A stretch of 64,000 bases of DNA from contig NZ_CP021431.1 in assembly GCF_002158905.1 (NCBI RefSeq), forward strand, positions 2,853,001-2,917,000. The letters are read 5' to 3'. The position numbers and the translations under genes are program-made. The notes below the pieces were generated by a model. That model was not told the origin of the DNA and did not search any database. It worked only from the letters and a program-made list of their open reading frames with translations. The stretch's first letter is position 1; each line of letters begins with the position of its first letter. This document shows, one piece after another, positions 21,649 through 41,371 of the stretch. The DNA is from Yoonia vestfoldensis (lineage in GTDB: Bacteria; Pseudomonadota; Alphaproteobacteria; Rhodobacterales; Rhodobacteraceae).

Positions 21649-21697
21649 GCGCGCTGCATAGCGTGACTGCCCTGCCTTGAAAAGGACCGCCCGCAGG

Positions 21698-29754: not shown

Positions 29755-31095
29755 TCAGTCCGCGCCATTGGCCAGCGGGCCAAGCGCGTTCAACCCTTTG
29801 AGGATATCAATCGCATAGGCCAGCTGGTAATCCTGTTCGCGCAATTGCGCGGCGGTTTCGGCGCGGGCGCGTTCTTGCTCGACCTGACGCAGCTGGTCTT
29901 CGGACAGGCCGTTGTTCAAGGCCCCGCGCAAATCAGCCTCTGAGCGCGTCGCGGGCGCGTCATCTTCCTCATCGGTGGCGGGCTGCGGGCGTGGCTGTTC
30001 CACGATGATATCAGGCGAAATACCCAAAGCCTGGATAGACCGGCCCGATGGTGTGTAATAGCGCGATGTGGTCAGGCGCATCGCCCCCTCGCCGCGCAGG
30101 GGCACAACGGTCTGCACCGATCCTTTGCCAAAGGAATTGGTGCCCACGATGATCGCGCGGCGATGGTCCTGCAAGGCCCCCGCCACGATTTCCGAGGCCG
30201 AGGCAGAGCCGCCATTGATCAGCACCACAATCGGCTTGCCTTCGGCCAGATCGCCGGATGTGGCGTTAAAGCGTTCGCCATCCTCGGGGTTGCGGCCACG
30301 GGTCGAGGTAATCTCGCCTGCATCCAGAAAAGCATCGGCAACATAGATCGCCTGGCTAAGCAGGCCGCCGGGGTTGTTGCGCAAATCCAGTACGATCCCG
30401 TCGATATTGTCCAAGCCTCCGGCAGCAGCGACCTGTTCGGCCATGCCGTCGCGCAGATTGGGAAAGGTCTGTTCGTTAAAGGTGGACACGCGCAACACGA
30501 CGGCATCACCTTCGGTGCGGGTGCGCACGGCGGTCAGCTTGATCGTGTCGCGGATGATCGACACTTCGAAGGGTTCCACTTCACCTTCGCGCACGACGGT
30601 GATCACGATTTCCGATCCGACAGGGCCGCGCATCAGGTTCACCGCATCATCCAGCGTCAGGCCCATCACGCTTTCGCCATCAACGGCCGTGATGAAATCG
30701 CCCGCCATGATACCCGCAACATCCGCCGGTGTGCCATCCATGGGCGAGACGACCTTGACCCAGCCTTCCTCTTGCGTGACCTCGATCCCCAGACCGCCGA
30801 ATTCACCCGATGTCTGCACGCGCATCGCGGCGGCATCCTCGGCAGACAGATAGCTGGAATGCGGATCAAGGGATGTCAGCATGCCATTGATCGCGGCCTC
30901 GATCAGTTCTCGGTCATCGACCTCTTCGACATAGCCCGCGCGGATCCGCTCGAAGATATCGCCAAACAGATCCAGCTGTTCGTATACGCTGGTTTGTTGA
31001 CCCTGCTCTTGCGCCAAGAGAGGGCCCGCCACCTGACTTGTCACCAAGAGCCCCAGCACAGCACCGCCTGTCGCGGCCATCATCAGCTTATTCAT
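29755..31095 (-). CDS. ctpA: S41 family C-terminal processing peptidase CtpA
   Basis: This 446-residue periplasmic protease has an N-terminal signal/anchor (MNKLMMAATGGAVLGLL), an S41 helical region with LTSLDPHSSYL, a PDZ domain (about residues 95-175), and the catalytic Ser in GGSASASEI with Lys in NSFGKGSVQT. The C-terminal 90 residues are acidic and then helical. Its frame is also the frame into which envC runs because of the G-run at 31243. I chose MNKLMM (31095) as start; an alternative Met is four codons upstream. Confidence 0.94.
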   Translation of the reverse strand: MNKLMMAATGGAVLGLLVTSQVAGPLLAQEQGQQTSVYEQLDLFGDIFERIRAGYVEEVDDRELIEAAINGMLTSLDPHSSYLSAEDAAAMRVQTSGEFGGLGIEVTQEEGWVKVVSPMDGTPADVAGIMAGDFITAVDGESVMGLTLDDAVNLMRGPVGSEIVITVVREGEVEPFEVSIIRDTIKLTAVRTRTEGDAVVLRVSTFNEQTFPNLRDGMAEQVAAAGGLDNIDGIVLDLRNNPGGLLSQAIYVADAFLDAGEITSTRGRNPEDGERFNATSGDLAEGKPIVVLINGGSASASEIVAGALQDHRRAIIVGTNSFGKGSVQTVVPLRGEGAMRLTTSRYYTPSGRSIQALGISPDIIVEQPRPQPATDEEDDAPATRSEADLRGALNNGLSEDQLRQVEQERARAETAAQLREQDYQLAYAIDILKGLNALGPLANGAD

Positions 31096-31108
31096 CGGTT
31101 TTCCCATT

Positions 31109-32175
31109 CTATTCCAGCGCGAACCATGCATCCGGGTTGACCGAAGCTTGCCCATCCCTGACCTCAAGATAAAGGGGCTGCGTGGTCTGACCGGCATCAA
31201 TCGCCTGATTGTGACCAAGATTAGCGTCATCCATGCCGATGTCCCCCCCATGAGACCAAGTGGCGCACCAGCCGCGATGATCTCGCCGGGTTGGCCAAAG
31301 GCCTCGGCCATGCCCGCGATCACGAAAAGCACATCCTCGGCCGGTTCCAGAATGACGACATTGCCATAGTCAAGCAAGGGTCCGCGAAACAGCAGCGTGG
31401 CGCGCACCGGCGATGTGACCAAGGCCTGCGGGGCAGCGGCGATGGTGATACCGGGGCGGTCCGGGGTGCCGGTGCGGATGATCCCGGCCACCGGCAAAGG
31501 CAGATCGGCCGCAGGCGCAAGGTCGGTCTGTGCGGGCATGTCCAGCCCCGCAAGCTCGGATGCCAGCGCCGCCAGCGTTTGCGCAGAGGCCAGACGCTGC
31601 GCGCTTTGCGCCGGATCCTCGACAAAACGGCGCGGCACATCCTGCCGTTCCGAAATCGCGCGGCCCAAGGCCGCGCGCGCCGTCTGGGCGAAATCCAACC
31701 CTTCGCGCAACATTTCTGCCGCGGCGATCCGCCGGTCGCGCAGGTCGCGCAACCTGTCAAACTCGCGCTGCAACCGGATCACGTCATCGCGCAGGGCCGG
31801 GGTCAGATCGGCGATGATCATACCGGCGCGCACGGCCCCGACCGGCCCTTCGGGATTGGCCAGCATCACCGGCTGCGGGCTTTGGCCGATACTGGCCAGC
31901 ACCATCAGAAACCCCGCAATCTCGTCGCGGCGCGCGGCCAGATCGGCGGCCACCTCGGCTTCAGCTGCGGTGATCTCGCGCAGGCTCTGGCGCATGGCAA
32001 GCAGCCCTGCCTCATAGGCCTGCACGGTCTGGGTCAGCGCGGCGACCTGATCGGCCGCCCCCTCTGCCGCGCCAAGCTGGGCATTGGCAGCCAGCAGCTG
32101 GCGCGCAGCGTCATCGGCGCTTTGCTGGGCGGCGGCAGGCAGGGCAAGCAGGATCAGGATGGCGGCCCATCTCAT
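31109..32175 (-). pseudogene. envC: EnvC-like murein hydrolase activator (M23/LytM), frameshifted at a G7 run
   Basis: EnvC-type proteins activate periplasmic amidases at division. The N-terminus has a signal peptide (ILILLALPAAAQ) and a long coiled coil (about residues 20-165). The LytM-like domain follows (FRGPLLDYGNVVILEP). At 31243-31249, seven Gs (minus strand) put the last 44 codons out of frame. The -1 frame after that point reads DIGMDDANLGHNQAIDAG and ends DAWFALE then TAG at 31109, exactly the expected LytM end. Without the shift the frame stays open into ctpA. Full length after correction would be 355 residues. Its start overlaps gpmI by four bases. Confidence 0.82.
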
Positions 32176-33686
32176 CGCCGGATCAGCGTCCGGCCGGTCA
32201 TCTCAGGCGGCAGCGCCAGCCCCATCAGGTCAAGCATTGTGGGCGCCAGATCGGCCAAACGCCCGTCGCGCAGGGTGACGCCGTCAGGCCCGCCGACCAG
32301 CGCGACTGGCACAGGGTTCAGCGTATGCGCGGTATGCGGCCCGCCCGTGACGGGATCGATCATGGTTTCGCAATTGCCGTGATCCGCGGTAACGATCATC
32401 GCACCGCCCGCCTCCTGCAACGCCGCCAGCACCGCACCCAAACCGGTATCGACAGCCTCGCAGGCTTTGACGGCGGCGGCGATATCGCCGGTATGGCCGA
32501 CCATATCGGGATTGGCGTAATTGGTGACGATCAGATCATAGCCCGCACCAATCGCCTGGACAAAAGCCTCGGTCACTGCGGCTGCGGACATTTCGGGCTG
32601 CAAATCATAGGTCGCGACCTTGGGCGATTGCGGCATATGGCGGTCCTCACCGGGATAGGGCGTCTCGACCCCGCCATTGAGGAAAAACGTCACATGCGGA
32701 TATTTCTCGGTTTCGGCCAGCCGGAACTGGCGCAGACCGTGCTGGGCGACCCAAGCCCCCAGCGTGTTCTGGATATCGCGCTTGGGAAAGACGATGTCGA
32801 ACCAGCCATCATGGCGGTCCGAATAGGACACCATGCCCAGCAGCGCCACAAGCGCGGGCTGCTGGCGCGCAAAGCCGTCGAATTCCGGATCAGCGATGGC
32901 GGCCAAGATCTCACGCGCGCGGTCGGACCGGAAATTCAGGCAGAAAAGCCCGTCATCCGGCGCAAAACCGGGATAATCGCCGATCACATGGGCGGGGATG
33001 AATTCATCGGTCTGACCAGCCGCCTGCGCCGCGGCAACCGCCGCCAGCGGATCAGCGGCAGGCACGCCCTGGCCCAGCACCATGGCGCGATAGGCGGTCT
33101 CGACCCGGTCCCAGCGGTTATCGCGGTCCATCGCGTAATAGCGGCCTGTCACGGTGGCGATGCGTGCCTGAGGCGGCAACATCTCGATCAAGGCCGTCAT
33201 GAAATGGCCGGCCGAGGATGGGGCCACATCGCGCCCGTCGGTGATGGCGTGCACAATGACCGGCACACCCGCATCGGTGATGGCGCGGGCCGCGGCGGCG
33301 ATATGGGCCAGATGGCCATGCACGCCACCATCCGACACCAGCCCCATCAAATGCGCGGCCCCGCCGCTGGCGCGCAGCTTGGCGATAAACCCGGCCAGCG
33401 CGGCATTGCGAAAAAACGAGCCATCCTCGATCGCCAGATCGATCTGGCCCAGATCCATCGCCACCACGCGGCCCGCGCCGATATTGGTATGGCCGACCTC
33501 GGAATTGCCCATCTGGCCGGTGGGCAGGCCCGCATCATTGCCATGGGTCAAAAGCTTGGCATGCGGGCCTTGCATGATCGCATCGAAATGCGGGGTCTGG
33601 GCCAGCTTGGGCGCATTGCCTTCGACAATGTCGCGCAGGCCCCAGCCATCCAGAATGCACAAAACGACAGGTTTGGGGGCGGACAT
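32172..33686 (-). CDS. gpmI: 2,3-bisphosphoglycerate-independent phosphoglycerate mutase
   Basis: The glycolytic enzyme interconverts 3- and 2-phosphoglycerate using two Mn ions. The 504-residue protein has the alkaline-phosphatase-type core (CILDGWG, catalytic Ser in MGNSEVGHTNIGAG, TADHGN) and the phosphotransferase insert (HAITDGRDVAP, GRYYAMDRD). The start MSAPKPVV at 33686 has GAGGAG upstream. The order rsfS-rlmH-gpmI-envC-ctpA is usual for Rhodobacteraceae. Confidence 0.96.
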   Translation of the reverse strand: MSAPKPVVLCILDGWGLRDIVEGNAPKLAQTPHFDAIMQGPHAKLLTHGNDAGLPTGQMGNSEVGHTNIGAGRVVAMDLGQIDLAIEDGSFFRNAALAGFIAKLRASGGAAHLMGLVSDGGVHGHLAHIAAAARAITDAGVPVIVHAITDGRDVAPSSAGHFMTALIEMLPPQARIATVTGRYYAMDRDNRWDRVETAYRAMVLGQGVPAADPLAAVAAAQAAGQTDEFIPAHVIGDYPGFAPDDGLFCLNFRSDRAREILAAIADPEFDGFARQQPALVALLGMVSYSDRHDGWFDIVFPKRDIQNTLGAWVAQHGLRQFRLAETEKYPHVTFFLNGGVETPYPGEDRHMPQSPKVATYDLQPEMSAAAVTEAFVQAIGAGYDLIVTNYANPDMVGHTGDIAAAVKACEAVDTGLGAVLAALQEAGGAMIVTADHGNCETMIDPVTGGPHTAHTLNPVPVALVGGPDGVTLRDGRLADLAPTMLDLMGLALPPEMTGRTLIRR

Positions 33687-33752
33687 GGCGAACTCCTCTG
33701 CATGCCCGCGATTCATACCGCCGGATCAGCCCAGCGCCAACCCGGCCAGCAC

Positions 33753-38358: not shown

Positions 38359-38380
38359 TGGATCTGTAAAAAACTTCTCT

Positions 38381-41287: not shown

Positions 41288-41371
41288 GGCGTCTTCCTTG
41301 CATTGCGCCCTCGGGCAGTTCCGGTCTATAGCCCCTTGCAACCGCGAGCCACAGCAAAACCGGAGAAACCC

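Follow-up and report, generated by a model that had tools for sequence, protein, structure and literature searches.

A broken envC that runs into ctpA in Yoonia vestfoldensis is most likely a one-base homopolymer error of the assembly

EnvC-type murein hydrolase activators combine a coiled coil with an M23/LytM domain, and C-terminal processing peptidases of the CtpA/Prc type (S41, TIGR00225) carry PDZ and Peptidase_S41 domains. Where two such genes stand side by side, a long open frame across both can be read in several ways. Programmed -1 frameshifting, of which dnaX and insertion sequences are examples, uses slippery heptamers of the form X_XXZ_ZZN together with stimulators, i.e. an upstream SD-like motif or a downstream structure. 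Long-read homopolymer deletion errors leave a run one base short. Here, we compare with these systems a locus in which the frame of envC passes its usual end and continues into ctpA. It lies in a window of 64,000 nucleotides of Yoonia vestfoldensis (contig NZ_CP021431.1, positions 2,853,001 to 2,917,000), the whole stretch of DNA that was analysed. Its features, in window coordinates, are the following.

31243..32175, minus strand: in-frame part of envC, murein hydrolase activator (M23/LytM), 311 codons as far as the last G of the run, assigned from the open reading frame, the M23 match and the identity to protein P0001
31243..31249, minus strand: run of seven Gs, where four of the five nearest relatives have one base more
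31109..31243, minus strand: EnvC tail shifted to the -1 frame, 44 codons and TAG, with the same residues as P0001 at 312-355
31096..31242, minus strand: 49 out-of-frame codons, stop-free by chance and in phase with ctpA; the same stretch is open in relatives L010 and L011
29755..31095, minus strand: ctpA, S41 C-terminal processing peptidase, 446 codons from ATG 31095, assigned from PDZ/S41 and TIGR00225

A previous sequence-only reading of this DNA had described seven Gs in envC, a normal EnvC end lying in the -1 frame behind them, and a stop-free frame of 806 codons into ctpA. All of this holds. Direct reading of the sequence gives a run of exactly seven Gs, in the context ..CTC ATG GGG GGG ACA.., and translation of the minus strand in the -1 frame from 31243 gives DIGMDDANLGHNQ...WFALE and a stop that ends at 31109. 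The seven-G run thus displaces the last 44 codons of EnvC to the -1 frame. The list of open reading frames has 806 open codons on the minus strand, from ATG 32175 to 29755, the envC frame running into ctpA, and in their product Pfam finds an incomplete Peptidase_M23 match (profile positions 4-76 of 96) followed by PDZ and Peptidase_S41. On its other side, the start of envC (32175, minus strand) overlaps the end of the gene at 32172-33716, which we take to encode phosphoglycerate mutase. A scan of 30900-31400 for promoters and terminators found none.

The upstream gene resembles EnvC-type activators in its signal-peptide-like start, its M23 match and its place between gpmI and ctpA, and both an intact copy of 355 residues and the relatives are named EnvC by their sources. 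It differs from them in that the LytM domain in the assembly is without its last part, owing to the loss of one base. The downstream gene is a CtpA by the usual marks: its product exceeds the TIGR00225 cut-off (NCBIfam) and contains PDZ and Peptidase_S41 domains (Pfam). Compared with other CtpA/Prc peptidases only the open frame upstream is different, and the gene keeps its own ATG at 31095.

The intact copy is the protein P0001. It has 100% identity to the window's in-frame EnvC over the 310 residues queried, its last 44 residues are those of the window's -1-frame tail, letter for letter, and its Peptidase_M23 match covers positions 4-96 of 96 (Pfam), against 4-76 in the open frame of the window. 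P0001 is found on five contigs, the longest of 532,437 bases, so that the window's contig of 3,836,950 bases is not among them, and it may derive from another strain than the window's. A protein at 99% identity, P0002, is likewise intact.

The relatives are also intact. A search among congeners covered 56 genomes including the window's own, all of which matched, and returned 30 loci, 29 of them from other genomes. The site could thus be read in 29 of the 55 matching congeners. All 29 have an in-frame EnvC tail whose stop lies just ahead of ctpA, and none of them has the broken envC. The five nearest relatives are a Yoonia MAG, SKA53, DSM 16212 and two Loktanella MAGs. Four of them have eight Gs at the tract (L010, L011, L013 and L014), and in the fifth (L012) the run is interrupted, a synonymous C standing between six Gs and a last G. 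More distant relatives mostly have other Gly codons, or other residues, at this position.

The fused frame itself was considered as a special feature of the locus and rejected. In L010 and L011 the same phase past the tract runs without a stop through the 200 codons examined and is that of ctpA, despite an intact EnvC tail, and the fusion frame is therefore incidental. The same phase meets a stop at the ninth codon in L013 and L014 and at the eighth in L012, where it is also out of phase with ctpA. Among the best 120 of 7882 protein matches, none joins EnvC and CtpA, and coverage of the first 500 residues is at most 33% in every case; the window's own 806-codon product is also absent from these 120, which include stand-alone CtpA proteins of 446-448 residues at 96-97% identity (P0123, P0124). 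Judging from these sequences, the 806-codon frame would be the outcome of any one-base loss at this place in the clade, and nothing suggests that a fusion has been selected.

The assembly consists of three contigs with 3,987,360 bases in total, of which the largest has 3,836,950. This matches the published genome of Loktanella (now Yoonia) vestfoldensis SMR4r, a strain from a diatom culture, with a genome of 3,987,360 bases and a chromosome of 3,836,950; it was sequenced by PacBio RS II on one SMRT cell at 177.86x and assembled with Falcon, and the report names no second sequencing technology (PMC5864940). We aligned 404 kb including the window to SKA53, which covered 321,080 bases. Among the one-base differences in these aligned bases, pure G/C runs of at least six were shorter here in five cases and shorter in SKA53 in none, while for pure G/C runs of 2-5 the counts were 12 and 21 (Fisher p 0.012, on five events only in the longer class, the envC site being one). 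Leaving out the envC site gives 4:0 (p 0.028, by hand). There is thus an excess of short homopolymers in this assembly, 5 against 0, in a small sample. The count excludes one run of six that is shorter in SKA53, since it is mixed and not pure. For A/T runs of at least five, five were shorter here and one was shorter in SKA53.

A seven-G tract is in itself not rare, since the genome has 180 exact G7 runs, next to 37 exact G8 runs (both strands together). In the four nearest relatives checked, the corresponding counts of G8 and G7 are 31 and 112 in G022, 39 and 123 in G055, 23 and 134 in G054, and 24 and 101 in G019. A wholesale cutting of long runs was rejected, because these counts resemble each other and four C8 runs were called within the same 321 kb. 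The loss of bases in the assembly is occasional, not wholesale.

Among the examined stretches, three conserved genes are broken at G/C runs: envC and two others. A gene for an AMP-binding ligase is split into two frames at G000:C1:2798904 (L083:5904), where a C run is one base short, and it is whole in the four relatives aligned. A methyltransferase gene is split into two frames at G000:C1:2935073 (L086:18073), where a G run is one base short; it is whole in the three relatives aligned, a fourth having given no alignment. The other two of the five short G/C runs are outside clear genes, as read from the open reading frames. The SMR4r record probably holds further breaks of this kind.

These results make it likely that the consensus of the PacBio RS II assembly lost one base of the G homopolymer that lies late in envC. 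We favour such an error because the relatives and the otherwise identical P0001 are intact, and because other G/C runs of the assembly are short; on the same grounds the sequence-only reading is upheld in so far as it had ranked a sequencing indel first. That reading had also named the observation that would make the site a sequencing error, namely relatives with eight Gs, an intact envC and a separate ctpA, and this is what the relatives show. The chromosome would then have the base that the consensus lacks, and in the organism envC would most likely continue to its usual stop, with ctpA as a separate gene just behind. The site is like known long-read homopolymer deletion errors in that one G is missing and in that other G/C runs one base short break conserved genes here, but our case is built on assembled sequences. 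High coverage usually removes homopolymer errors, and the assembly does call runs of eight elsewhere; both count against an error of the consensus. One might thus suppose that the chromosome itself has recently lost a G, truncating EnvC within its LytM domain and fusing its frame to ctpA, a private loss of function that perhaps arose in culture. This would suit a G run, a natural site of replication slippage, in a gene whose remainder is intact throughout and in a strain isolated from a diatom culture (PMC5864940). But it is at odds with the absence of the break from all 29 relatives and with the existence of P0001, intact and otherwise identical; the EnvC tail shows no decay and is identical to that of P0001, and the further G/C runs of the assembly that are one base short suggest a single technical origin. 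We therefore hold a private mutation to be unlikely, although it comes well ahead of the explanations considered below. Were the base truly lost, envC would be mutated in a single isolate.

Could the run of seven Gs be there for a purpose? The sequence-only reading had proposed a phase-variable tract, which would switch EnvC between an intact and a truncated or fused form. The tract is a homopolymer in a coding region, and across related genomes it has one short and several long states. Yet the four uninterrupted runs among the five nearest relatives are all of the in-frame length, the fifth being interrupted by its synonymous C, and no second out-of-frame tract length is found among the relatives examined. 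Seven or eight Gs are short for phase variation, which would also be unusual in a periplasmic protein related to division. With none of the 29 relatives sharing the break, phase variation is unsupported and we regard it as very improbable. Even less credible is that the ribosome makes a programmed -1 shift, or that RNA polymerase slips, on G_GGG_GGG, so that some products would regain the EnvC end and the rest would be an EnvC-CtpA fusion. As at programmed sites, the heptamer has the X_XXZ_ZZN form when read in the zero frame (ATG GGG GGG), and the conserved EnvC tail follows in the -1 frame. But none of the 29 relatives needs the shift, so that the shifted arrangement is not conserved, and the best 120 of the 7882 matches include no fusion protein. 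The heptamer, previously called ideal, has a fitting form, but a motif made only of Gs is a poor one in E. coli: in a published survey, UUN and AAN codons shift more readily than GGN codons, and G_GG.G_GG.U without a stimulator has the lowest frequency of the set, 0.018%, a figure that is not for the all-G heptamer (PMC4066793). By eye, the SD-like motifs taken from that survey (PMC4066793) are absent from the 30 bases ahead of the site, and the 93 nt downstream fold no better than shuffled sequences (z -0.01). The envC site thus differs from programmed -1 frameshift sites in having neither kind of stimulator, a weak motif and a shifted arrangement that is not conserved. Since in addition the fusion frame is open in two relatives with an intact envC, the earlier suggestion of a programmed frameshift giving EnvC or an EnvC-CtpA fusion finds no support. 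Just as improbable is the idea that the seven-G run is real and used, with occasional -1 slippage giving full EnvC and unslipped translation giving an envelope-anchored EnvC-CtpA fusion, in which processing protease and septal activator would be tied together.

The broken envC of this marine bacterium is thus most likely an ordinary reading error, and it calls for some caution with similar cases. In a GC-rich genome, a slip of one base in a homopolymer can yield a long open frame joining neighbour genes, because the displaced frame is often free of stops and possibly in phase with the next gene.

Scans for further frameshifts gave mixed returns. A tblastn scan of the window flagged 9 and 18 open reading frames against two relatives, and by eye most of these were antisense, spurious or intergenic. 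An alignment census found a net shift in 16 of 172 relative-referenced genes and in 21 of 179 own-referenced genes, mostly where genes end or the sequences diverge, and only the internal shifts at G/C runs were retained from it, namely envC, 2798904 and 2935073. The sites 2881019 and 2926073, where the runs are shorter in SKA53, fall in the first 1-3% of the open reading frame and were not counted as breaks. Site 2929885 was at one point a candidate loss in the window's genome and was dropped: the match is of 1601 bases in G022 and G054 and of 1602 in G055, and the difference looks specific to SKA53.

A few other differences were seen in passing. At window position 38368 a T run on the minus strand has an extra C in both nearest relatives; read base by base, this site was taken as intergenic. 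At 41301, directly ahead of the point where a conserved gene starts (MKDDRRHPF), one base differs from both SKA53 and the MAG G022. A longer frame in the relatives spans this site, which was read base by base as outside genes; the start of the gene or the base itself may deserve attention. At 21697 the own-referenced comparison gives a net one-base shift relative to SKA53, at 81% of an open frame of 1368 bases. Finally, at G000:C1:2852197, about 800 bases before the start of the window, a tandem duplication of 13 bases relative to SKA53 falls within an open frame that is 2.2 kb long in SKA53, and is possibly another broken gene or a real change in a repeat.
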